Below, one piece after another: positions 43,605 to 55,175 of a stretch of 64,000 nt of DNA (position 1 is the first letter of the stretch; every line of letters starts with the position of its first letter). Under the pieces are notes generated by a model. It searched no databases, was not told the DNA's origin, and saw only the letters and a list, made by a program, of their open reading frames with translations. Made by a program: the position numbers and the translations under genes. Origin of the DNA: Pseudomonas sp. MTM4 (GTDB lineage: Bacteria > Pseudomonadota > Gammaproteobacteria > Pseudomonadales > Pseudomonadaceae); contig NZ_CP048411.1 in the NCBI RefSeq assembly GCF_019355055.1, positions 1,426,001 through 1,490,000 on the forward strand. Direction: 5' to 3'.

Positions 43605-44810
43605 TCAGGTGACAGCCTCGTGCCAAGAGCCGAAAGGGTCGGGAAGCCGCTCCCAAGTCTGCACGCCCGCGGCCATCTCCTGGTCGGTGAGTAGGCAGGC
43701 ATCCAGCTCCGCGCTCAATCGCTCGAAATCGATATTCTGCCCGATGAATACCAGCTCCTGCCGGCAGTCGCCGGTCTGGACGTCCCAGTGTTTGAGAATT
43801 TCCTGCATCCCCTCGTCATCGGTGGGCCATTGTGTCTTGGGTACGAAACGCCACCAACGTCCCGCCAGACCATGGCGCATCAGACCACCCGCCTGGGACC
43901 AGCTACCGGCGTCGCGGTACTTGCTCGCAAGCCAGAAGAAGCCCTTGGAGCGCAGCAGCTTGCCATTGCTCCAGTCACGGATCAGAAATTCATGGAAACG
44001 CTGCGGATGGAACGGCCGACGCGCACAATACGCGGTCGAGGCGATACCGTACTCCTCGCTTTCGGGCACATGCTCGCCCCGTAGCTCCTTGAGCCAGCCT
44101 GGCGCCTGGGCGGCACGCTCGAAATCGAAGCGGCCTGTGTCCAAGATACTGCCCAGGGGCACCCGGCCCATGCTCATCGGCATGATTTCGGCGTGCGTGT
44201 TAAGGCCGCGCAGGATAGCGGTCAGCTCTTCACGCTCGGCGCTGGAGATCAGATCGATCTTGCTGATCAGGATGATGTCGGCGAATTCCACCTGCTCGAT
44301 CAGCAGATCGGTAATGGAGCGCTCATCCTCTTCGCCCAAGGTCTCGCCACGGCTGGCCAAGCTCTCCGATTCATGGAAGTCGCGGAGAAAGTTGACCCCG
44401 TCGACCACCGTGACCATGGTATCCAGGCGCGCCAGGTCGGAGAGGCTGCGCCCCTGCTCGTCGCGGAAAGTGAAGGTCTCGGCCACTGGCAAGGGTTCGG
44501 CGATGCCAGTGGATTCGATCAGCAGGTAGTCGAAACGGCCTTCGCGAGCCAGGCGACTGACTTCCTCCAATAGATCTTCGCGCAAGGTGCAGCAGATGCA
44601 GCCGTTGCTCATTTCTACCAGCTTCTCCTCGGCACGGTTGAGGCTTACATTGCGTTGCACTTCGCTGCCGTCGATGTTGATTTCGCTCATGTCGTTGACG
44701 ATCACCGCGACACGACGGTTCTCACGATTCTTCAGCACATGGTTGAGCAGCGTGCTCTTGCCGGCACCAAGAAAGCCGGACAGTACGGTAACGGGAAGTC
44801 GGTCAGTCAT
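43605..44810 (-). CDS. COG0523 GTPase, CobW/ZigA-like zinc metallochaperone
   Basis: 401 residues. Walker [10 protein letters not shown] (about 12-20), the metal-binding CICC motif in [11 protein letters not shown], Walker B/switch [13 protein letters not shown] (NKxD variant), and a CobW C-terminal domain. Members co-induced with dksA2 in Pseudomonas serve zinc allocation during starvation. ATG at 44810, 10 nt after dksA2, one transcript. The Zur box at 45360-45372 lies upstream of this pair. Confidence 0.87.
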
Positions 44811-44820
44811 GGGGAAAGCC

Positions 44821-45225
44821 TCAAGTCTCACGTAGATGTTTCTCTTTCTTTTCCTGCCGCTCCTTGGCCTCGATGCACAAGGTCGCCGTAGGTCGCAGCA
44901 ACAGGCGGCGCAAACCGATCGGCTCTCCGGTTTCCTCGCACCAGCCGTATTCGCCACGGGCCAGGCGTTCGAGCGCCCGGTCAATCTTGTCGAGCAGCTT
45001 CTTCTCACGTTCGAGTAGACGCAGCTGCCACTGGCGCTGCTCCTCCGTACTACCGATATCCGCAGGATCGCTGCTCGGCTCGTGATCGCGTAGTTCATTG
45101 AACTCGCTCGTGATTCGCTCCTGCAGCTCACGACGCTCGGTCAACAGCAGCTCGCGGAAAAACGCCTGCTGCTGTTCGCTCATGTATGCGTTGGGGTGTT
45201 GCTGAAGTAGTTCCTGCTCAGTCAT
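44821..45225 (-). CDS. dksA2: DksA2, zinc-independent DksA paralogue
   Basis: 134 residues: a coiled-coil hairpin with the tip DPADIGS and a zinc-finger remnant, [11 protein letters not shown]...[11 protein letters not shown]. Canonical DksA has CxxC twice; here the second cysteine of each pair is Thr and Ala, so only two of four remain. This is the DksA2 hallmark, replacing zinc-bound DksA as an RNA polymerase/ppGpp cofactor when zinc is scarce. Start at 45225 ([11 protein letters not shown]); upstream in-frame ATGs at 45288 and 45354 lie close to the Zur box. Confidence 0.88.
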
Positions 45226-45359
45226 GGGTGCACCAATGATCGATTGAGACGACAACATCCATAAATCAAACCGCTCTCTGAAGTTCATCTTGATAAAAGC
45301 GTTTCGGCATACCTGCTGGGCTACGGGTGATCCCATTACGGTTTCGCCCAACACATATC

Positions 45360-45372
45360 GTTATGATATAAC
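45360..45372. promoter_or_regulatory. Zur box between dksA2-cobW and rpmE2 operons
   Basis: GTTATGATATAAC, a near-perfect match to the Zur palindrome GTTATANTATAAC (one arm base differs). It sits between the divergent dksA2 (start 45225) and rpmE2 (start 45421) genes, so zinc-loaded Zur should repress both directions. Confidence 0.8.
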
Positions 45373-45420
45373 ATTTAAGTTCGTATCAATCACACCCTAC
45401 TCAAAATGAAGGAGCAGCTT

Positions 45421-45678
45421 ATGAAACCAGGCATCCATCCCGACTATCGTCCCGTCCTGTTCCACGACACGGCGGCGGACGTCTACTTCCTGATCGGCTC
45501 GACGGTCGAAGCCAGCCGTACGCACCAGCACACCGATGGCAATACCTACCCGTACGTAGCGCTCGACGTGTCCAGCGCATCGCATCCGGTCTACACCGGC
45601 CAGCAGCGCAAAACGACGTCCGAAGGCCGTATCGCGGGCTTCAACAAGCGCTTCGCCGGATTTACCACGAAGAAGTGA
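45421..45678 (+). CDS. rpmE2: 50S ribosomal protein L31 type B (zinc-free form)
   Basis: 85 residues: [29 protein letters not shown], and [13 protein letters not shown] identify L31 type B (YkgM). It has no CxxC zinc pair, and replaces zinc-binding L31 to free zinc during starvation. Start at 45421 with AAGGAG 6 nt upstream rather than the in-frame ATG at 45406, which overlaps that site. First gene after the Zur box, followed 97 bp later by the TonB receptor. Confidence 0.92.
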
Positions 45679-45775
45679 TCGCTCTTTTCACAACGCCAAG
45701 ACGATCCGCTCGAATACCCGAGCGGATCGCGTCCTCACCCCGATAGCAATCATCCAAGCCACGGAAGACGCTTCA

Positions 45776-47737
45776 ATGTCCCGCAAGACCCGCCTCCTTA
45801 CTGTCCGCACACCCGCCCGACTCGTTTCCGCCCTCGCCCTGCTACCCCTGACGGCACTGGGCGCTGACCAGCCCCTGAACCTCGAACCCACGGTCATCAC
45901 CGCCACCTCCACGGCGCGCCAGCTGAGCGATGCCCCCGCAAGCGTTACGGTCATCACCCACGAGGAACTGAGCATGCGGCCCGTTCAGGATCTCGAAGAT
46001 GCCCTGCGTGGCACGCCGGGGCTCCAGTTCACAGGCATTGGCATGACGCGCCGTGGCGTCAGCATTCGAGGGATGGGAAGCGAGCACACCTTGGTGCTGA
46101 TGAATGGACAGCGCATCAATACCGCCGCTGGCGCCGTGGCGCATGCCGATTTCGACCTAGGCTGGATGCCGGTGGAGGCGATCGAACGCATCGAGGTGAT
46201 ACGCGGCCCGATGTCCTCGCTCTACGGTTCCGAAGCGCTCGGCGGTGTGATCAATGTCATCACGCGGCGCGCGACGGACGCATGGCAGGGCGCGGCGCAG
46301 ATCAACGGCGGCGTACGCGAGGACGGGCGCGGCGGCCAGATACATCAACTGGGGATCTATGCCGGCGGCCCACTTGTGCCTGGACTGCTCGGCCTATCCT
46401 TGAGCGGCGAGACGCGGCGCCGCCAGGAAACGCCCTTTAACGAGGACGCCTCGCTGTCGGAGATCGAAGGCCGTGACGCGCACAGCGGCGACATCACCCT
46501 GAGCTGGACGCCAGACACCGCGCAACGCATCGACTTCAGCTATGCAAGCGGCCTTGAGGATCGCTGGCGCAATACCCGCAGTGCAGGACGCGCACCAGTG
46601 GATTACGAGTCCAGCGATCGTATCGAACGTGAGCGATTCTCCCTCGCCCATAGTGGCGATTGGACGTGGGGCAGCAGCTCGCTGCGCGCCTACCGCAACA
46701 CACTGGAGCGCACCAACCGCTATACCAACGGCGTGGTCCCCTCCTCGCCACGTCAGGAACTCACCGACGACATCGTCGATGGCAGCCTGACCCTGCCATT
46801 CGCCGGCATGCACTTGATCACGCTCGGCGGCGAGTGGCGCAAGGAGCAGCTGGAGGACGGCGGTTTTACGACAGGCGATGCCCGAATCATTCACCGTGCG
46901 CTGTTTCTGCAGGATGAAATTCAGTTCAACCCAGCGTGGTCGCTGGTCCTGGGTAATCGCTTCGATCAGCACGAGGAATACGGCTGGCACAACAGCCCGC
47001 GTGCCTACCTGGTTCACCATGTCAACGATGCCCTGACGATCAAGGGCGGCGGTGGCCGCGGGTTCAAGGCGCCCTCACTCAAGCAGCTATCGCCGGGCTA
47101 TTCGGCGATCGGCGGCGGCGGGATGTTCAGGATCTACGGCAATCCGGACCTCGAACCGGAGATCAACACCATGTACGAAATCAGCGCGGACTATCAGGCA
47201 GACGGCTGGTCCGTGAACGCGGGTGTCTTTCAGAACAACGTGCGCGGTCTGATCCAGACGGTCTGCGTATCGAGCTGTGGCGTTCGCGGCCAAGAAGTTC
47301 GCAACTACGACAACGTCGACGAGGCGCGCATCCGCGGGCTCGAGCTAGGCGGCGGTCTGGATTTGCCCGCCAACCTGCGCTGGGACCTGAATTACACCTA
47401 CCTCGACGCCATCGACCGCAGCGCCGACCGGCGCCTGGGTGATCGAGCACGCCATCTGGCCAACACCCAACTGCAATGGACGCCGAACGCCACGTTCACC
47501 GGGCAGCTGCGTGGCGAATACGTCGGCAGCCAGCTGACCTATTCCAGCAACACGGCCTATGCGGTGCCGGCCTACAGCCTGTGGCATCTGGAACTGACGC
47601 AGCGGATTACCGACACCCTGAGCATTCGCGGCGGCATCGAAAACCTGACCGACGAAGACTTCAGCGATGCGTCTGACAGCTTCACCTTCGCCGAACCGGG
47701 CCGCACCTATCACGTCGGCTTGAGCCTGAGTTTCTGA
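45776..47737 (+). CDS. TonB-dependent outer-membrane receptor (CirA/ZnuD-like)
   Basis: 653 residues. Signal peptide at about 1-29 (LVSALALLPLTALGA), a TonB-box-like PTVITAT, plug domain with TRRGVSIRGMGSEHTLVLMNGQRIN and IERIEVIRGPMSSLYGSEALGGVINVIT, then a 22-strand barrel ending in YHVGLSLSF. In P. aeruginosa the Zur-repressed PA1922-PA1925 genes pair a CirA-like receptor with a CobN-like gene, as here (the next gene starts 1 nt after the stop). Cargo is unknown: zinc or a zinc-carrying ligand is inferred from the Zur box. Confidence 0.87.
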   Translation: MSRKTRLLTVRTPARLVSALALLPLTALGADQPLNLEPTVITATSTARQLSDAPASVTVITHEELSMRPVQDLEDALRGTPGLQFTGIGMTRRGVSIRGMGSEHTLVLMNGQRINTAAGAVAHADFDLGWMPVEAIERIEVIRGPMSSLYGSEALGGVINVITRRATDAWQGAAQINGGVREDGRGGQIHQLGIYAGGPLVPGLLGLSLSGETRRRQETPFNEDASLSEIEGRDAHSGDITLSWTPDTAQRIDFSYASGLEDRWRNTRSAGRAPVDYESSDRIERERFSLAHSGDWTWGSSSLRAYRNTLERTNRYTNGVVPSSPRQELTDDIVDGSLTLPFAGMHLITLGGEWRKEQLEDGGFTTGDARIIHRALFLQDEIQFNPAWSLVLGNRFDQHEEYGWHNSPRAYLVHHVNDALTIKGGGGRGFKAPSLKQLSPGYSAIGGGGMFRIYGNPDLEPEINTMYEISADYQADGWSVNAGVFQNNVRGLIQTVCVSSCGVRGQEVRNYDNVDEARIRGLELGGGLDLPANLRWDLNYTYLDAIDRSADRRLGDRARHLANTQLQWTPNATFTGQLRGEYVGSQLTYSSNTAYAVPAYSLWHLELTQRITDTLSIRGGIENLTDEDFSDASDSFTFAEPGRTYHVGLSLSF

Positions 47738-47738
47738 C

Positions 47739-50700
47739 ATGACCAGTTGGATCAAAATCGGCGTGGCGCTAATCGCGCTGGCCGGCTGGGGAGCGGCTGC
47801 GTTCGCCAACCCGGTACGGCAAGACATTCATGTACAGGTGCTGACGACCGACTTCGTCCTGCAGGGCAAGTTCGACCGGCTGGCGGGCTGGGCGGACCAA
47901 TACGGTGTCACTCTCGATACGCTGCGCGTGTCCTCTGTAGCTACGCCGCAACACGGGACTGACACGGACCTGCTGATACTGGACACGCCGCGCCCTGGGG
48001 ACCTTGCAACAGTCCAGCAGCAGTTCGACGCGCTAATCGCGAAGGGCACGCCTTGGATACGCGTCGGCGGTGGCTCGCCTGCCTTTGGCAACCTGCCCAC
48101 GCCGGTCGCCAAGCGGTTGATCGGTTATTACGCCAACGGTGGCGAGCAGAACTTCAGGGATCTGTTCGCCTACCTGCAAGCCTGGCACGACGACCTCCCC
48201 ACCGACTCGATTCCTGCCCCTACGGAGCTGGGCAAGGTCGGTTTTTATCACCCCGACGCACCCGCGCCCTTTACAGAACTCGACGACTACCTCGCCTGGG
48301 GCGCCGATCGCTGGACGATAGATGCGCCGCGTGTCGCCTTCGCCATTCACCGCGGTGCCGTCGTCGATAGCCAGTTGCAGTTGATCGACGCGTTGATGAA
48401 AAGCAGCGAGTCGCGTGGCCAGGCTCCAATCGCGTTCTGGATAGAGGGCAGGGACCCGCAGGCGCTGAGCAAGGTGCTGGTACCCGCACGCAGTGATTTG
48501 CTGGTTAACCTTCAGCACATGCAGAACGGTCTAGCACGTCAGGCAGAGTTTCTAGTACTTGGCATCCCGGTGCTGTCCACCCTGACCTGGCGTGAAGGTG
48601 ATCCTGCGCACTGGCGAGCGTCCGATAGCGGTATTACGGCGCGAACCGCCGCGGCCATGCTGACCATCCCGGAAAGCTGGGGCATGACCGATCCGCTGGT
48701 GATCGCCGCCGTCGAAAACGGCGAGCCGACCCCGATCCCCGAACAAGTCGAGGCGCTGCTCAGCAAGGTCGACAGCCTGACCCGGCTGCGTCGGCTTGCC
48801 CCTGCGGAGAAACGTCTAGCGTTGATGTTCTGGAACCATCCCGACGGCGAAAAGAATGTGGCCGCCTCGAACCTCAACGTGCCGCGCAGCCTGGCGCACC
48901 TCTCCACTGCGCTGCGTGAAGCCGGTTATGACGTACCCGCTACGGATGAGCCACGATTGATCGAAACGGCGCAGCGCCTGCTTGGCGGTTACTACCGGCC
49001 GCAAACGCTGGATTCTCTGCTAGCCGACGGGCTTGCCGTGGCGTTGTCACTGTCGGATTACCAGCGCTGGCTCGCCGATCTGCCGGCACCCAGCCGCCAG
49101 GCATTGCTTGAGCGATGGGGCGATCCCGCTGACCATTGGGCGCTACGCGATATCGATGGCCAGCCTCACTTCATCATTCCCGCCGCGCGCCTTGGCAAGC
49201 TGTTGCTGCTGCCGCAACCGCCGCGTGCCGGTCGCCCCGGTGAGGCCTATCACGACAGCAAGGTTCCGCCCGATCATCTCTACCTGGTCGCTTATCAGGC
49301 GCTGCGAGAGGATTTCCAGGCCGATGCGCTGATCCATTTCGGCACGCATGGCACGCAGGAATGGCTACCCGGTAAAGATCGCGGTCTGGCCGCGAGCGAC
49401 TACCCCTTCCTTGCGCTGGGCGATATGCCGGTGTTCTATCCCTACATTCAAGACAACATCGGCGAGGCCATACAGGCGCGCCGCCGCGGCCGTGCGGTCA
49501 TCGTCAGTCACCAGACGCCACCGTTTGCGCCGGCCGGACTCTACGATGAACTGCGCGACATGCATGCGCTGATCCACGAGTATCAGCAACTCGATGAGGG
49601 CGCGGTGCGTGAAAACACGGCCGAACGTATTCGTCGGTTGACCCTGGAAAACAAACTGCTGGAAGACTTGGGCTGGGACGAAGCGCGCATGCGTGCCAAT
49701 ACCGGAGGCTTCCTGCAAGCGTTGCATGATCACTTGCATGACATCGCCCAGGCGAACCTCCCGCTCGGCCTGCACACCTTCGGCGAGCCTGCATCCACCG
49801 AACATCGCCTGGCCACCGTGCTGCAACAACTGGGCGAGCCCTATCTGCGCGCGTTGGAGCTGACCGATGACGAGCCGATGGCCGAGGATTTCGCCGGGCT
49901 ACAGGCCAGCCTTCCCTACCGCACGCTGCAGCGTTATTTGCGCGAGGGTGAAAGCCTTGATTCGATTGCCGGTGCACGACTGCGCGAACAGATCGAACGC
50001 GCACGCGTGCTCGACGCCCGGCTGACCGACACGGGGGAAATGAAAGCGCTGCTGACCGGCCTCGCCGGTGGCTTCATCGCTCCCGGACTCGGGGGCGACC
50101 CGGTGCGCAATCCGGACGTGCCAAGCGGTCGCAACCTCTACGCCTTCGAGGCCGACAAGTTGCCGACCCGAGCGGCCTATGAGGCAGGCGACAAGGCACT
50201 GGAGCAACTGCTCGCGAGCTACCGTGATGAGCACGAAGGCGAATTGCCGACGAAACTCGCGTTCAGCCTGTGGTCCTCCGAAGCCATGCGCCACATGGGC
50301 ATTCTCGAAAGCCAGGTCCTGCATGCACTGGGTGTACGTCCGGTTTGGGATGAGGGAGGACGGATTCGTACCCTGGAAATCATTCCGGCAGCGGAACTTG
50401 GCAGAGCACGCATTGACGTCGTCGTCCAGGTCACTAGCGTCTACCGCGATCAGTTCGACGGCTTCATGCGTCAGCTAGCCGATGTAATGGAGCGTCTCGC
50501 CGTGCTGGATGAGCCGGGCAACACGCTGGCCACCAACAGCCGACTACTGGCCCAGCGGCTGGTGGATCAAGGGGTCGATGCCGAGCGCGCCGGGCGCTTG
50601 TCGCACTTGCGGCTGTTCGGTAACGAGCCCGGCGATTACGGCACCGGCGTTTCTCAGTTAACGATGGACTCGACACGCTGGGAGAACGATTCGGCCCTCG

Positions 50701-51626
50701 CAGAGCAGTTCATCTCGCGGTTGCAATATGGCTACGGCACCGGCAGTTGGGGAGAAAAGATCGAGGGCCAAAACCTGTTCGCCGAACAACTCAAAGGTGT
50801 CCAGGCTGCGATCATGGCCCGCTCCAGCGAGCTCAACGGCGTGCTGTCGACCGACCATCCATTCGAGTTTCTAGGGGGCCTGTCACTGGCGGTCCGCCAT
50901 CTCGACGGTGCCAGTCCATCACTCTACATATCGGACCTACGCAAGGCCGAGCCCCGCACGACGGGCGCGGCGAGCTACCTTGCCAGTGAACTGCGCAGCC
51001 GCTACCTGAACCCGCAATGGATCAGCGCGATGCAGCAGGAAGGCTACGCCGGCACGTTGGAAGTGCTGAACGTCGCCAATAACCTCTGGGGCTGGCAGGC
51101 CGCCGACCGCAGCATGGTCCGCGCCGATCAATGGCAGGCCCTGCATGACACCTTCGTCATGGATCAGCGCGAGCTTGGCCTCGATGAATGGTTCGAGGCA
51201 CACAACCCCACGGCCCAGGCCCAGCTGATCGAGCGTATGGCCGAAGCGATCCGCAAGGGCTACTGGGATGCCTCCGATCAAACCCGCCGCGAACTGGCCG
51301 AACGTTGGCAGGCGCTCACCACCGAACATGGCGCCGATGCCGGCGAGCCGATCACCCGAGACTTCATCGAACAGATGGCCGCCGGTTATGGCCTCGCTCC
51401 AGAAGCCGCTCCAACTGCCGAAACGCCCACCTCATCAAGCAACGCGAACGCGGGTGAAACGGTGCGCGGCCAGGTGATGCAGGAAGTGGCTGAGCAACCA
51501 AACGAAGCGCCGAGCCCATGGCGGCTTCTGCTCGGCATCGCCGCGTTGGCGTCGTGTCTGGCGTTGGGTGCCCTACGCCAGGCGCTTGCCAATCGTCGCG
51601 CCGATCCCGTTTTGAACCCTCAATGA
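47739..51626 (+). CDS. periplasmic, membrane-anchored CobN-like chelatase subunit
   Basis: 1295 residues of the CobN/magnesium chelatase H family; the signature HFGTHGTQEWLPGKD is near residue 532 and a long run (about 90-1230) is family-like. Unlike B12-pathway CobN it starts with a signal peptide (GVALIALAGWGAAAFANP) and ends with a hydrophobic segment (WRLLLGIAALASCLALGAL) before a short basic tail, so it should face the periplasm with a C-terminal anchor. No CobS/CobT or other cobalamin genes occur here. The neighbours point to metal removal or insertion on an imported ligand under zinc starvation. Confidence 0.83.
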   Translation: MTSWIKIGVALIALAGWGAAAFANPVRQDIHVQVLTTDFVLQGKFDRLAGWADQYGVTLDTLRVSSVATPQHGTDTDLLILDTPRPGDLATVQQQFDALIAKGTPWIRVGGGSPAFGNLPTPVAKRLIGYYANGGEQNFRDLFAYLQAWHDDLPTDSIPAPTELGKVGFYHPDAPAPFTELDDYLAWGADRWTIDAPRVAFAIHRGAVVDSQLQLIDALMKSSESRGQAPIAFWIEGRDPQALSKVLVPARSDLLVNLQHMQNGLARQAEFLVLGIPVLSTLTWREGDPAHWRASDSGITARTAAAMLTIPESWGMTDPLVIAAVENGEPTPIPEQVEALLSKVDSLTRLRRLAPAEKRLALMFWNHPDGEKNVAASNLNVPRSLAHLSTALREAGYDVPATDEPRLIETAQRLLGGYYRPQTLDSLLADGLAVALSLSDYQRWLADLPAPSRQALLERWGDPADHWALRDIDGQPHFIIPAARLGKLLLLPQPPRAGRPGEAYHDSKVPPDHLYLVAYQALREDFQADALIHFGTHGTQEWLPGKDRGLAASDYPFLALGDMPVFYPYIQDNIGEAIQARRRGRAVIVSHQTPPFAPAGLYDELRDMHALIHEYQQLDEGAVRENTAERIRRLTLENKLLEDLGWDEARMRANTGGFLQALHDHLHDIAQANLPLGLHTFGEPASTEHRLATVLQQLGEPYLRALELTDDEPMAEDFAGLQASLPYRTLQRYLREGESLDSIAGARLREQIERARVLDARLTDTGEMKALLTGLAGGFIAPGLGGDPVRNPDVPSGRNLYAFEADKLPTRAAYEAGDKALEQLLASYRDEHEGELPTKLAFSLWSSEAMRHMGILESQVLHALGVRPVWDEGGRIRTLEIIPAAELGRARIDVVVQVTSVYRDQFDGFMRQLADVMERLAVLDEPGNTLATNSRLLAQRLVDQGVDAERAGRLSHLRLFGNEPGDYGTGVSQLTMDSTRWENDSALAEQFISRLQYGYGTGSWGEKIEGQNLFAEQLKGVQAAIMARSSELNGVLSTDHPFEFLGGLSLAVRHLDGASPSLYISDLRKAEPRTTGAASYLASELRSRYLNPQWISAMQQEGYAGTLEVLNVANNLWGWQAADRSMVRADQWQALHDTFVMDQRELGLDEWFEAHNPTAQAQLIERMAEAIRKGYWDASDQTRRELAERWQALTTEHGADAGEPITRDFIEQMAAGYGLAPEAAPTAETPTSSSNANAGETVRGQVMQEVAEQPNEAPSPWRLLLGIAALASCLALGALRQALANRRADPVLNPQ

Positions 51627-51636
51627 ACCGAAATCC

Positions 51637-52116
51637 ATGAACGCACTTGAAACCAGTCTCTACGAACTGACACGTATTTTTCTCGCACCCGTCCTGCTAT
51701 TGATCCTGGCCGCGCTGGTCTATGCCTTTCTGGCATTGGGCAGCTTCGCCATGGAGGCCTGGCAACGCCGTAACGGCCGCTATCGCTCCGTCCTTGCGGC
51801 GCACCAAGCGGCAAACGGTGGCACCAGCGATGACCTCGAACTCTGGATCATGCAACGCCTGGAATGGCTGCGCGTGACCTCGCGGAGCGCACCGATGCTT
51901 GGGCTGGTCGCAACCATGATCCCTATAGGCCCAGCCCTGCTGGCATTAACCCAGAGCGACGCAAAAGGCATCGGCGACAATCTGGTGGTCGCCTTCTCCT
52001 CTGTGATCCTTGCGCTCATCGCAGCGAGCATCACCTTCTTCGTTCTCACCGTTCGGCGCCGCTGGCTGTTGCAGGAGCTGCGTGCCATCGAGCGCGCCGG
52101 GGTACAGCGCCGATGA
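51637..52116 (+). CDS. MotA/TolQ/ExbB-family proton-channel protein
   Basis: 159 residues, three transmembrane segments (about 12-38, 88-108, 118-140). The core SRSAPMLGLVATMIPIGPALLALTQ is the TolQ/ExbB signature (usual form: PxLGLLGTVxGM). With the next protein it should form a small proton-driven complex in the inner membrane. Ten nt after the CobN-like gene; its stop overlaps the next start. Much shorter than ExbB or TolQ proper (about 230-240). Confidence 0.82.
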   Translation: MNALETSLYELTRIFLAPVLLLILAALVYAFLALGSFAMEAWQRRNGRYRSVLAAHQAANGGTSDDLELWIMQRLEWLRVTSRSAPMLGLVATMIPIGPALLALTQSDAKGIGDNLVVAFSSVILALIAASITFFVLTVRRRWLLQELRAIERAGVQRR

Positions 52117-52436
52117 GATTTCTCGACCATGACGAGGACGATGACCCGCTGCTGTCGGTGGTCAACCTGATCGACTTGTTCCTGGTGGTGATCGGCATTC
52201 TGCTCATCGTCATCGTGCAGAACCCGCTCAATCCATTCAGCCAGGAGAAGGTCGTGGTTATCGAAAATCCAGGCGAAGCGAACATGCGCATGCTGATCAA
52301 GGATGGTCAGGAGCTGAAGCAATATGAGTCAAGCGGCGAAATCGGCGAGGGCCAGGGCGCCAAGGCTGGAATCACCTATCGCCTGAACGACGGAAGGATG
52401 ATTTACGTGCCCGAGGAGAAGGCATTGGTTAAGTAA
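52113..52436 (+). CDS. DUF2149 protein, ExbD/MotB-like partner
   Basis: 107 residues: one N-terminal transmembrane segment, VVNLIDLFLVVIGILLIVIV (about 15-34), with an Asp in the membrane as in ExbD/TolR/MotB, then a small soluble periplasmic domain. Start at 52113 (ATGA overlap with the previous stop); a longer open frame from 51864 runs through the ExbB-like gene and is not coding. Coupled translation and complementary topology suggest a two-part motor serving the anchored CobN-like protein. Confidence 0.8.
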   Translation: MRFLDHDEDDDPLLSVVNLIDLFLVVIGILLIVIVQNPLNPFSQEKVVVIENPGEANMRMLIKDGQELKQYESSGEIGEGQGAKAGITYRLNDGRMIYVPEEKALVK

Positions 52437-52574
52437 TTTCTAACCGTGATCTAGGCAAAAGAAGACAGCCCAATCCTATTGAGGCCACATCGGTATCGGG
52501 CCGACAGCTGCCGATAGTCGAACCTTACGCGGGGCCAGGTCGAAATTTGGCGAACAGTCATTCCAAATGACCTT

Positions 52575-52587
52575 GTTATATTATAAC
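52575..52587. promoter_or_regulatory. perfect Zur box
   Basis: GTTATATTATAAC, a perfect palindrome matching the Zur consensus, 35 bp before the ATG of the membrane acyltransferase gene at 52623. It sits in a 186-bp gap that otherwise shows no gene, so it gives the downstream acyltransferase-porin pair its own zinc control. Confidence 0.85.
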
Positions 52588-52622
52588 TTTCGCATCCCGC
52601 TTTATATCCAGGACGCGCTTAC

Positions 52623-53819
52623 ATGACTAACGCCGCCACGATGCCCGCAGCCGGCACGCTTTCATCCCTTCATGTGAAGACGCAGATACGCACGCGGATG
52701 CTTGCGATCGATGCATTGCGCGGGCTGGTCATGCTGTTCATGCTCGTCGACCACGTGCGGGAGACCTTTTTCCTGCACGTTCAGGTAGGCGACCCCATGG
52801 ATCCGGTCAACACGCCACCGGAGCTGTTCTTCACGCGTATCAGCAGCATGGTCTGCGCACCGGTCTTTGTATTCCTGACCGGCCTTTCCGCATGGTTGTA
52901 CGGGCAATCCCACAGCCGCAGCGAAGTGTCGACGTTCCTGCTCAAGCGGGGCGTATTCCTCGTGTTCCTCGAACTGACCTTAGTGAACTTCGCCTGGAAC
53001 GCGACCTTCGTACCGCCGACCCTGTGGTTGCAGGTCATATGGGCCATCGGCTTGAGCATGATCGTGCTGTCCGCGCTTATCCACATGCCGCGTGCGGGGT
53101 TGGCGGTGCTGGGTCTGGTGATCGTGGCCGGCCACAACCTGCTTGATGGCATCGTGCTCACAGCGGATTCGCCGTTCTTCGAGATCTGGTCGATCCTGCA
53201 CCAGCGTTCCTTTCTCGAAATTACCGAGCACACACGTGCACGGACCACTTACCCCATCCTGCCCTGGATCGGTCTCATCGCACTTGGCTACTGCGCAGGC
53301 CCCTGGTTTGCCCGCGATGCCGATCCGGCGCAGCGTGCCTGCCGCCTGTTGATGTGGGGTATCGGTTTGCTCGTGGGTTTCGTCCTGATCCGCTACCTGA
53401 ACGTCTATGGCGACAAGCCGTGGAGCACCATGGAAAACGGCGTACGCACCTTCATGAGCTTCATGTCGCTTACCAAATACCCACCTTCCCTAATGTTCCT
53501 GATGCCAACCATCGGTGTCGGCTTTCTGCTGCTCGCCTGGTTTCAGCAACTCGAAGGGCGTCCCGTGCTGAAGGTGCTTTCGCTGTATGGCGGTGCGCCG
53601 ATGTTCTTCTACGTCCTGCACCTGCTGGTACTCAAGGCGCTTTACCTGATCGCTGTGCAGATCTGGGGCCTGAACCAAGGCAACTACTACGGTTTCGATA
53701 GCCTCGCTGGTATCTGGCTGTGGGCAGTGATGCTGTCGGCGGCGCTTTATTTTCCGACCCGCTGGTTCGCGCAACTCAAGCAGCGCCGTCGCGATATCGC
53801 TTGGCTGAAGTACTTCTAA
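52623..53819 (+). CDS. multi-spanning membrane acyltransferase-like protein (DUF1624/HGSNAT-like)
   Basis: 398 residues, about 10 transmembrane segments. The start IDALRGLVMLFMLVDHVRETFF matches the heparan-alpha-glucosaminide N-acetyltransferase/YeiB-like family, which carries a conserved His in the first helices. It might modify an envelope molecule or a ligand in the periplasm; no substrate can be named. AGGA site upstream. Behind a perfect Zur box and 9 nt before the porin gene, so it belongs to the zinc-starvation response. Confidence 0.78.
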   Translation: MTNAATMPAAGTLSSLHVKTQIRTRMLAIDALRGLVMLFMLVDHVRETFFLHVQVGDPMDPVNTPPELFFTRISSMVCAPVFVFLTGLSAWLYGQSHSRSEVSTFLLKRGVFLVFLELTLVNFAWNATFVPPTLWLQVIWAIGLSMIVLSALIHMPRAGLAVLGLVIVAGHNLLDGIVLTADSPFFEIWSILHQRSFLEITEHTRARTTYPILPWIGLIALGYCAGPWFARDADPAQRACRLLMWGIGLLVGFVLIRYLNVYGDKPWSTMENGVRTFMSFMSLTKYPPSLMFLMPTIGVGFLLLAWFQQLEGRPVLKVLSLYGGAPMFFYVLHLLVLKALYLIAVQIWGLNQGNYYGFDSLAGIWLWAVMLSAALYFPTRWFAQLKQRRRDIAWLKYF

Positions 53820-53828
53820 GGCTTGGTG

Positions 53829-55175
53829 ATGAACAGAAAAACCGGTTACTGGATGCGGGTGCTGTCGCTCTCATGCCTGCCATTGGCGGCATGTGCTGGC
53901 GCACAGGAGCAGGCGGCGGGTTTCATCGAAGATGGCACATGGAACCTGCTAAACCGCACCGTCTACGACCGTCGTGATTATCGCCACGGTGGGCTCAACG
54001 GGGCCGCGCGCAATGCAGCTAAACCGCGCGGCGAGCGCAGCGATCTGGCGGAGGAATGGGGCTACGGGCTAATGGGCAGCTACGCCTCAGGGTTCACCCA
54101 AGGCACGGTCGGCTTCGGCCTCGATGCCCACGCCTATCTGGGGGTAAAGCTGGACAGCGGCGGTGGTCGCGCTGGCAAGGCTCGCCTGCTTTCGGTGGAT
54201 AACGAGGGGCATCCCAAAGATGACTATGGACGCGCTGGTGCGGCGGCGAAGCTGCGTCTGTCATCCACAGTGCTGAAATACGGCGAGCACCGGGTGAAAA
54301 CGCCCGTCTTCGGCTCGTCCGACAGCCGCCTGCTGCCTGAAACCGCCACGGGGTGGTGGGTGACCAGCCAGGAATGGGGCGACCTGACCCTCAACGGTGG
54401 TCATTTCACCGAAAGTACCGACCGCAATGCCAGCAGCCACGACCGTGGGTTCGTCGTGAACTACTCCAACGGGAGACAAGGCGACTCGTTCGACTTCCTG
54501 GGCGGCAGCTACGACGGCATGGAGCGCCTCAACCTGACCCTTTACAGCGCGCAATACGACGAAACCTGGCGGCAGCATTATCTAGGCGGCGTGTACGCAT
54601 GGCCGATTGATGATGAACAGGCGTTGTCCTTCAATCTGAATCTCTACCGCACACAGGACACCGGAGAGGCACGCTCGGGCGCTATCGACAACACCACCTG
54701 GAGCTTGATGAGTTCTTACTTGCGCGGTGCCCATCGCTTTTCGTTGGGCTACCAGAAGGTGCATGGGGATACGCCGTTCGATTACGTCACCCGCGGTGCC
54801 ATCTACCTCACTAACGCGGTGGCGCTGTCTGACTTCAACGGGCCGAATGAAGCCTCATGGCAATTACGCTATGACCTGGCGATGGCTGCATACGGCATAC
54901 CCGGCTTGAGTTTCAGTGCAGCATATATTCGCGGCAGTGGCATCGACGGTAGCGATGTGGACCCCAGCGGTGGCTATACCTATCTGGGTTATGGGCGTAA
55001 CGGACGGCACTGGGAGCGTGACCTGGAAGCCCGTTACGTCGTACAAAACGGGGCCGCCCAAGGGATGACCTTCAGCGCCCGCTATGCGGTGCATCGGGGC
55101 AACATCGATCAGGCGGAATTGGACGCCGACCAGATTCGCTTGGCGGTGGAGTATCCAATCCAGGGGATGTTCTAG
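53829..55175 (+). CDS. OprD-family outer-membrane porin
   Basis: 448 residues. Signal peptide ending near ACAGAQEQAAGF, then OprD-type sequence: FIEDGTWNLLNRTVYDRRDY, WGYGLMGSYASGFTQGTVGFGLDAHAYLG, SSDSRLLPETATGWW, and a final barrel strand ending in Phe. Substrate-specific porins of this family pass small carboxylates and peptides; under Zur control it might admit a zinc-ligand complex. Start at ATG 53829; the frame is open from a TTG at 53823. Confidence 0.85.
   Translation: MNRKTGYWMRVLSLSCLPLAACAGAQEQAAGFIEDGTWNLLNRTVYDRRDYRHGGLNGAARNAAKPRGERSDLAEEWGYGLMGSYASGFTQGTVGFGLDAHAYLGVKLDSGGGRAGKARLLSVDNEGHPKDDYGRAGAAAKLRLSSTVLKYGEHRVKTPVFGSSDSRLLPETATGWWVTSQEWGDLTLNGGHFTESTDRNASSHDRGFVVNYSNGRQGDSFDFLGGSYDGMERLNLTLYSAQYDETWRQHYLGGVYAWPIDDEQALSFNLNLYRTQDTGEARSGAIDNTTWSLMSSYLRGAHRFSLGYQKVHGDTPFDYVTRGAIYLTNAVALSDFNGPNEASWQLRYDLAMAAYGIPGLSFSAAYIRGSGIDGSDVDPSGGYTYLGYGRNGRHWERDLEARYVVQNGAAQGMTFSARYAVHRGNIDQAELDADQIRLAVEYPIQGMF

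Follow-up and report, generated by a model that had tools for sequence, protein, structure and literature searches.

The hmuYRSTUV operon of Bacteroides and Porphyromonas encodes HmuS, which was proven in 2025 to be a heme dechelatase converting heme to protoporphyrin in an NADH-dependent manner (PMC12583661, PMC13227078). Iron-regulated hmu operons of Bacteroidota are reported to consist of HmuY, a TonB receptor, the CobN-like HmuS, HmuT, an ExbB-like protein and a DUF2149 protein (PMC10434189). We analyzed an operon of related composition in a 64,000-nucleotide stretch of Pseudomonas sp. MTM4 DNA (contig NZ_CP048411.1, positions 1,426,001 to 1,490,000; the window), where, within positions 45360-52436, a Zur box is followed by rpmE2 and genes for a TonB-dependent receptor, a 1295-residue CobN/HmuS-like class I chelatase, an ExbB-like protein and a DUF2149 protein. 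An original prediction made from the letters of this stretch had described these elements, whose coordinates, strands and families agreed with ours, and had read them as a proton-powered periplasmic complex removing zinc or another metal from an imported tetrapyrrole or metallophore. The metal-stripping idea gained from the export signal and anchor, the lack of CobS/CobT, the coupling to ExbB/DUF2149, the Zur box and the HmuS-type active site. The closest characterized system, hmuYRSTUV/HmuS (PMC12583661), had been overlooked; with it, a periplasmic CobN-like dechelatase accompanied by ExbB/DUF2149 has a precedent.

Like hmuYRSTUV, the window operon combines a TonB receptor, an anchored periplasmic class I chelatase, an ExbB-like protein and a DUF2149 protein, and its chelatase shares with HmuS the His538/His1209/Glu1212 center, His254 and control by metal starvation. 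Unlike hmuYRSTUV, it has no gene in the Y or T places, the counterparts of R, S, U and V being contiguous, and it carries a Zur box instead of iron control, a receptor below the heme-family cut-offs and a chelatase of a separate clade. The window protein also differs from HmuS in lacking the Met-rich insertion, Met79, the HGR motif and Gln299, and in having a cleavable signal peptide in place of the N-terminal anchor stated for HmuS. Most simply, the window system is a widely conserved relative of the heme dechelatase system under zinc control. It would work like HmuRSUV but is not classed as HmuS, because it lacks the six-gene operon, the Met-rich insertion and the Met79/HGR site.

The same four genes under Zur control form PA1922-PA1925 in the Zur regulon of P. 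aeruginosa; unlike there, in Stutzerimonas rpmE2 leads the operon and the box lies ahead of rpmE2. PA1924 is an ExbD in print, and by gene order its presumed counterpart here is the ExbB-like protein. Published readings of PA1922-PA1925 link it to cobalt (PMC4542158, PMC8531726, PMC13083405), see in it an importer of free zinc (PMC10393844, PMC8456098) or take it for a converted cobalt importer (PMC11761036); no link between it and HmuS was found in the searched part of the open-access literature. The BtuS family, a name from Rodionov 2003 (cited in PMC6460266), is likewise CobN-like, exported and proposed for metalloporphyrin salvage. An Azospirillum relative with 59% identity (P0064) bears the BtuS name. 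The family was, however, named for B12, and no cobalamin riboswitch was found for the window operon. CobN of CobNST has the PF02514 fold and the first histidine in common with the window protein, but is cytoplasmic, needs CobS/CobT and has Asp/Gln for His/Glu. CobN and ChlH insert metals, and their partner ATPases are CobS/CobT and ChlI/ChlD.

The chelatase and its membrane partners

The chelatase gene (47739..51626, + strand) encodes a protein of 1295 residues that matched Pfam CobN-Mg_chel (PF02514) at 993 bits (cut-off 24.5). Hydropathy computed from the sequence placed a signal peptide at residues 1-23 (47739..47807, +), its cleavage site between AFA and NP being read by eye, and a hydrophobic segment, the likely membrane anchor, from about residue 1263 (51525..51590, +), as the original prediction had proposed. 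Relatives were fetched by chelatase similarity alone, and 80 of 88 loci from named genomes were kept (L numbers below denote loci), giving with the window a Zur-clade set of 81. Many members of this set are closely related, and its counts of Zur boxes, His1209 and gene sets are therefore not made up of independent events. Comparable segments were present at the N terminus in 65/81, at the C terminus in 76/81 and at both in 61/81; among 13 CobN/ChlH controls, the threshold was passed at the N terminus by 4 and at the C terminus by none. This pattern suggests that the chelatase is exported and anchored, and not cytoplasmic like B12 CobN.

The claimed absence of CobS/CobT was also confirmed: a profile search of the genome found no match to CobT and none to CobS over the cut-off (best 25 bits against 558.55). 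Profile searches counted one PF02514 protein, the chelatase itself, one DUF2149 protein, Fur and four canonical ExbD/TolR proteins in the genome; among relatives, 8 of 26 genomes likewise had a single PF02514 protein and no CobT. The best solved relative was the heme dechelatase HmuS (PDB 9d26; 429 bits vs 372 for the best CobN entry), and the counterpart in P. aeruginosa PA7 shared 66% identity over 1270 aligned residues. The model TIGR02257 (cobalto_cobN) scored the window protein at 514.5 bits, below its cut-off of 822.05, and was passed by 12/12 CobN controls at 1505-1848 bits. Given this score, the lack of CobS/CobT, its predicted location and the missing Asp/Gln pair, the window chelatase is not B12 CobN, although one NCBI model names it so.

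The active site was compared by HmuS numbering, checked on P0242. Removal of His538 abolishes heme turnover by HmuS (PMC12583661), and its counterpart, His537 of the window protein (HFGTHG; codon 49347..49349, +), was conserved in 81/81. The HmuS motif LSLDHxxEFMGG appears in the window as LSTDHPFEFLGG, which keeps the His and Glu and differs in two motif letters; its His1040 (codon 50856..50858, +) is the counterpart of HmuS His1209, an Asp in true CobN. Counterparts of His1209 and Glu1212 were present in 79/81 and 77/81, respectively, and that of His254 in 78/81, mostly as H-M/L-Q and not the HGR of HmuS, while true CobN had Asp/Gln at 1209/1212 in 12/12 and His254 in none. Met79 of HmuS is a Thr in the window protein, and the 78 rows listed for the set of 81 showed no Met at this position, although the head-domain alignment is weak. 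The Met-rich insertion of domain IV amounted to 19 residues with 0 Met in the window protein and L061, vs 141 residues with 16 Met in HmuS. Because Met79 is half of a heme site that needs reduction for turnover, its loss would fit a metal handled without reduction, such as Zn(II). The His/Glu residues themselves do not encode the metal, because HmuS handles iron with them. Two Lampropedia members of the Zur clade (L038, L075) have Asp/Gln in place of His/Glu and no Zur box, and are a natural test case for substrate change.

The operon genes were tightly packed, with gaps of at most 97 bases and the DUF2149 ATG overlapping the stop of the preceding gene (ATGA). That gene (51637..52116, +) encodes a short MotA/TolQ/ExbB-family protein of 159 residues (Pfam MotA_ExbB, PF01618, 26.9 bits, cut-off 22.9), and the last (52113..52436, +) a DUF2149 protein of 107 residues (99.9 bits) with one membrane helix and an ExbD-like layout, by family the HmuV counterpart. 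The Asp noticed earlier in this helix (Asp21, NLIDLFLV; codon 52173..52175, +) was invariant in 72/72 aligned DUF2149 sequences. Both genes adjoined the chelatase gene on the same strand in 81/81 loci. In the reverse direction, DUF2149 was sought in evenly drawn genomes and found in 21/369 of the class and 17/398 of the phylum; 34 of the 35 DUF2149 loci other than the window's contained an ExbB-like and a CobN-like gene, including L124, which has only a chelatase edge fragment, and the sole exception, L138, was a sub-cut-off DUF2149 match. In this phylum DUF2149 thus practically always accompanies ExbB-like and CobN-like genes. The coupling of ExbB-like/DUF2149 to the chelatase across loci is new here.

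The pair resembles the ExbB-ExbD and TolQ-TolR motors in joining a MotA_ExbB member to a single-helix partner with a membrane Asp, but the window ExbB-like protein is only 159 residues long with a short cytoplasmic loop, and DUF2149 is missed by the ExbD model and has a short periplasmic part. No PF02472 (ExbD) match was found at the locus. A comparison of the ExbB-like protein with the three ExbB/TolQ of the genome by hhalign gave 5% probability in the wrong register, and its ExbB assignment therefore rests on Pfam. Neither the DUF2149 nor the ExbB profile had a meaningful match among PDB sequences. In a weak alignment of DUF2149 with ExbD (hhalign, 4% probability) the membrane Asp fell on the ExbD Asp; unrelated pairs gave P values of 0.31 and 0.4.

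Cytoplasmic class I chelatases are driven by ATPases, and ATP is unavailable in the periplasm. Recombinant HmuS is reported to stall after 1-2 turnovers, lysates of B. theta to dechelate heme without a need for ATP, and the HmuS authors depict HmuU/HmuV as energizing the receptor. Both the stall and the ATP independence would be accounted for if HmuU/HmuV, or here ExbB/DUF2149, reset the chelatase in a proton-driven manner, and we consider ExbB/DUF2149 the probable proton-driven partner of the chelatase.

Zur boxes and the iron-type sister clade

A window scan detected the exact palindrome GTTATNNNATAAC at 45360-45372 and 52575-52587. The first copy (GTTATGATATAAC, no strand assigned) lies upstream of rpmE2 and the operon and is conserved in relatives. 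The pattern was a 13-base Zur form similar in kind to the consensus given in PMC10393844. At ≤1 mismatch, the window would be expected to contain 0.23 sites; as few as 2 of 100 shuffles reached two. The two sites at the locus were the sole exact ones in the 4.69-Mb genome; the reversed pattern likewise had two genome-wide sites, making the number by itself unremarkable, and both true sites sit at a zinc-type locus. A 2-mismatch search for the genome-wide regulon was uninformative (458 matches per strand, control 641). The genome encodes a Zur-like regulator at 112.5 bits, below the model cut-off of 167, and it is therefore named by likeness and by its place beside a ZnuA-like gene (264.4 bits, cut-off 268).

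With ≤1 mismatch allowed and the reversed pattern as control, a Zur box lay in the leader around the receptor start in 54/81 operons (control 1/81) and within 4.2 kb upstream of the chelatase in 61/81, 30 of them perfect (control 3/81), leaving 20/81 operons without a box. Downstream of the operon a box was found in 4/78, three of these being the second box of the window locus and of two close relatives, L003 and L005. The gene that separates box and receptor in the window and near relatives is rpmE2, encoding type B ribosomal protein L31 (45406..45678, +; Pfam Ribosomal_L31; NF002462 123 bits, cut-off 86). Box-bearing taxa spanned alpha-, beta- and gammaproteobacteria and included Stutzerimonas, Halopseudomonas, P. 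aeruginosa PA7, Vibrio, Photobacterium, Pseudoalteromonas, Azospirillum, Bradyrhizobium, Thauera and Luteimonas, among others. This breadth, which is new here, appears to run counter to the printed view of Zur control of PA1922 as apparently confined to P. aeruginosa, a view based on the 150 bases before the ATG (PMC10393844).

As the original prediction had stated, the P. aeruginosa counterpart responds to zinc: mutation of znuA is reported to raise PA1922-PA1925 expression 45- to 147-fold (PMC4542158), and Zur to bind the PA1922 promoter in vitro (PMC8531726). With its perfect box and a Zur-like protein in the genome, the window operon is a predicted member of the Zur regulon, induction by zinc depletion being known for the P. 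aeruginosa counterpart. Four loci (L018, L020, L031 and L045) had a zur-like gene (72-97 bits) no more than 8 kb away from the chelatase. In Bosea (L018, 5679-7485) it is divergent from a zigA-receptor-chelatase-ExbB-DUF2149 row, and regulator and operon may share a control region.

Cobalamin control was considered separately. A B12-box pattern occurred exactly in L004, L015, L035, L059 and L078 and with ≤2 mismatches in some further loci. Rfam scans of 16 places, among them 12 Zur-clade loci including the window (L015 and L059 lay outside the scan), found cobalamin riboswitches only in L004 (7057-7275), L035 (1252-1448) and L078 (7112-7330), all on the minus strand and pointing away from the operon, with a receptor-like gene on the riboswitch strand in L004 and L078. 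Of the 12 Zur-clade loci, 9 had no riboswitch on either strand and none had one on the strand of the operon, and L054, with a 2-mismatch B12 box on the operon strand, had no Rfam riboswitch. Cobalamin riboswitch control of the operon was ruled out in these 12 loci by Rfam.

The relation of the chelatase to HmuS was placed on a tree. A quick tree contained 101 rows after removal of sequences shorter than 900 residues or ≥80% identical to a kept one, and a careful tree 46 hand-picked rows and 444 columns. In the careful tree HmuS, a sister (Fur) clade and the Zur clade grouped with support of 98/91, apart from CobN, ChlH and a further group; support was 99/98 for the Zur clade and 98/92 for the sister clade. 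The Zur-clade proteins thus form one clade with the two active-site histidines of HmuS and without its Met heme ligand, a relationship that is new here. In the further group (L127-L137, L150-L153) the CobN-like proteins, mostly ~1450 residues long, had motifs such as HLGRHS and LDNNDAFDYLGG, and their loci had ExbB-like and DUF2149 genes and showed neither a Zur nor a Fur box.

In the sister clade, a Fur-like site (19-base consensus, mismatches allowed) was found in the leader of 6/15 loci at ≤5/19 mismatches (control 0) and of 9/15 at ≤6/19 (control 1), and a Zur box in 0/15. Of the 13 sister-clade receptors scanned (L148 and L149 left out of the 15), five exceeded NCBI heme/hemoglobin cut-offs (L126, L140, L141, L142, L144). 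Those of L115-L117 and L123 were Cir-like, as in the Zur clade, and receptor type alone therefore fails to separate the clades. Residues 1209/1212 were Asp/Gln in 13/15 sister-clade proteins, Asp/Glu in L143 and His/Glu in L125. Closely related systems thus appear to exist under iron-type and zinc-type control, the iron-type partly with heme receptors, which is also new here. The sister systems of L115, L116, L117, L123, L126 and L140-L144, many of them with Fur-like boxes and some with heme-family receptors, are probably uncharacterized HmuS-type heme dechelatase operons of proteobacteria, outside Bacteroidota. L115 has an extra receptor-like frame of 718 residues between chelatase and ExbB.

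The window receptor (45776..47737, +; Pfam Plug/TonB barrel) is of the PA1922 type, its nearest solved structure being the colicin I receptor Cir, and fell below heme and B12 receptor model cut-offs. A PA1922-type receptor (>200 bits) was present in 74/81 loci, and six had another TonB-receptor-type frame of ~800 residues, one identified by Pfam; in L044 the contig ends there. Of the 50 scanned among these 74, with cut-offs judged from E-values, none reached the heme-receptor cut-offs (best E-values 2.9e-74 for TIGR01785 and 2.4e-66 for TIGR01786) or those of the B12 receptors TIGR01779 and BtuB (best 5.3e-76 and 7.9e-61). A conserved His and the Cys pair C497/C501 of the receptor do not name a ligand.

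Competing explanations for the operon

Our preferred explanation, to which we would give an even chance, is uptake under zinc starvation in which a zinc-regulated dechelatase takes zinc, or a metal standing in for it, from an imported tetrapyrrole-like chelate. The TonB receptor would bring the metal-loaded chelate into the periplasm, where the anchored chelatase would grip the ring between His537 and His1040, protonate it and free the metal for import by ZnuABC. The ExbB-like and DUF2149 proteins would make up a small proton-driven unit of the TolQ/TolR type, which would most likely power conformational turnover or the release of product, standing in for the ATP-driven CobS/CobT or ChlI/ChlD, and Zur would turn the system on when zinc is scarce. 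The gene set and its conservation, the export signal and anchor, the Zur box, the two histidines and the lack of CobS/CobT were seen in the sequence; from them we infer dechelation over insertion, a ring substrate, zinc as the metal and the motor role. Zinc coproporphyrin, made by a cheese-rind bacterium, is a candidate substrate; the cited parts of that report contain no mention of a zincophore or of zinc acquisition (PMC6104308).

Several observations weigh against this explanation. The NCBI model NF004644 ('cobaltochelatase subunit CobN') was passed by the window protein at 2028.6 bits (cut-off 1248), as it was by the Fur-clade paralogue L112, and identity was 26.6% to HmuS vs 29.2% to the true CobN of PA7. 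The absences of Met79, HGR, Gln299 and the Met-rich insertion set the window protein apart from the proven heme dechelatase. The single ChlH in the comparison (NF009140 2205 bits, cut-off 1300) inserts metal and also has a His at 1209, which is therefore no proof of dechelation. Zur box and His1209 associate at clade level only: 17/62 His-type rows lacked a box, and an independent-pairs test had one informative pair and was non-significant. The match of DUF2149 to the four ExbD/TolR proteins of the genome was weak (hhalign 4% probability, P 0.011), and recombinant HmuS is reported to be active, if poorly, without HmuU/HmuV. In L004, L035 and L078 a cobalamin riboswitch adjoins the operon, although on the opposite strand. 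Ligand and metal, finally, are inferred.

The best surviving rival, which we regard as unlikely, is an importer of non-chelated zinc, in which free Zn2+ is taken up by the receptor, ExbB/DUF2149 supply the receptor with energy, and the role left to the CobN-like protein is that of a relic or carrier that binds zinc. It is the function stated in PMC10393844 and PMC8456098, and Zur control is consistent with it. However, a free-ion importer has no need of a 1295-residue chelatase with an intact two-histidine center, kept in 79/81 operons, the receptor is Cir/siderophore-like, and the four canonical ExbD/TolR proteins of the genome already exist for energizing receptors.

A further rival is the scavenging of cobalt from imported cobalamin-like rings to replace zinc; in P. 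aeruginosa cobalt rose in a znuA mutant and relieves zinc starvation (PMC4542158, PMC13083405). The CobN name given by NF004644 and the riboswitches of L004, L035 and L078 favor it, but these riboswitches point away and none of the 12 Zur-clade loci had one on the operon strand. In addition, 50/50 receptors were below the TIGR01779 and BtuB cut-offs, the chelatase failed TIGR02257, and its His/Glu stands against the Asp/Gln of 12/12 true CobN, leaving cobalt scavenging quite improbable.

We hold it no more probable that the operon encodes a heme dechelatase under zinc control, supplying for instance iron or porphyrin during zinc starvation. The module and two-histidine site are those of HmuS, to which the protein is 26.6% identical, but the box is Zur and not Fur (Fur-like sites at ≤5 mismatches in the leader of 1/81, control 1/81), none of the 50 Zur-clade receptors reached heme cut-offs vs 5/13 in the Fur clade, and the Met79 ligand is absent. 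Least probable is a chelatase that loads metal into, or holds, an exported or periplasmic ring, as the insertion of metals by CobN and ChlH and the His at 1209 of the compared ChlH could suggest, but the operon has no ATPase partners and is paired with an importer, its P. aeruginosa counterpart is induced at metal scarcity (PMC4542158), and HmuS, with the same site, dechelates (PMC12583661).

Zinc dechelation would provide a testable function for the strongly zinc-starvation-induced PA1922-PA1925 operon and its relatives, filed in reviews as free-zinc or cobalt import, and would carry periplasmic dechelation beyond gut Bacteroidota and iron, to Proteobacteria and probably to zinc. It offers a reason for the presence of HmuU/HmuV in hmu operons and for the stalling of recombinant HmuS, on its own, after 1-2 turnovers. 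It also speaks against the use of the name 'cobaltochelatase CobN' for a broad set of proteins. More speculatively, and with clear doubt, Proteobacteria might harbor a proton-powered family of periplasmic dechelatases split by metal. Its Fur branch would act on heme and its Zur branch, on porphyrin-type zinc carriers, as the first biological zinc dechelatase; ExbB/DUF2149 (HmuU/HmuV) would then be the chelatase motor, the counterpart of CobS/CobT and ChlI/ChlD, and not a TonB helper.

Neighboring genes and a leader hairpin

Divergent from the operon lie two zinc-type neighbors, the zinc-stress gene dksA2 (44821..45225, -), assigned by profile matches, and zigA (43605..44810, -), encoding a COG0523 zinc chaperone GTPase (NCBIfam ZigA NF038288, 687 bits, cut-off 600). 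A scan of 45150-52700 for sigma-70 promoters and terminators found none. The gap from rpmE2 to the receptor gene contains a perfect inverted repeat of 11 bp with a 6-base loop (45702..45729, no strand assigned) and no T-run; this hairpin is a possible attenuator, stabilizer or setter of the rpmE2-to-receptor ratio. Hairpins of 10, 6 and 7 bp were present at a like place in L005, L008 and L009, respectively, and only 4-5 bp hairpins in L004, L006 and L078; L003 and L007, where the receptor start was called too far upstream, were left out of this comparison.

The second perfect Zur box (52575..52587, no strand assigned) lies ahead of a membrane-protein gene at 52623 and an OprD porin gene at 53823. 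This region (52623-55175) encodes an HGSNAT-like membrane protein (PF07786) followed by the OprD-family porin (PF03573, 466 bits), and L003 and L005 share the second box together with the membrane-protein gene. The gene pair may provide a further zinc-regulated outer-membrane channel.

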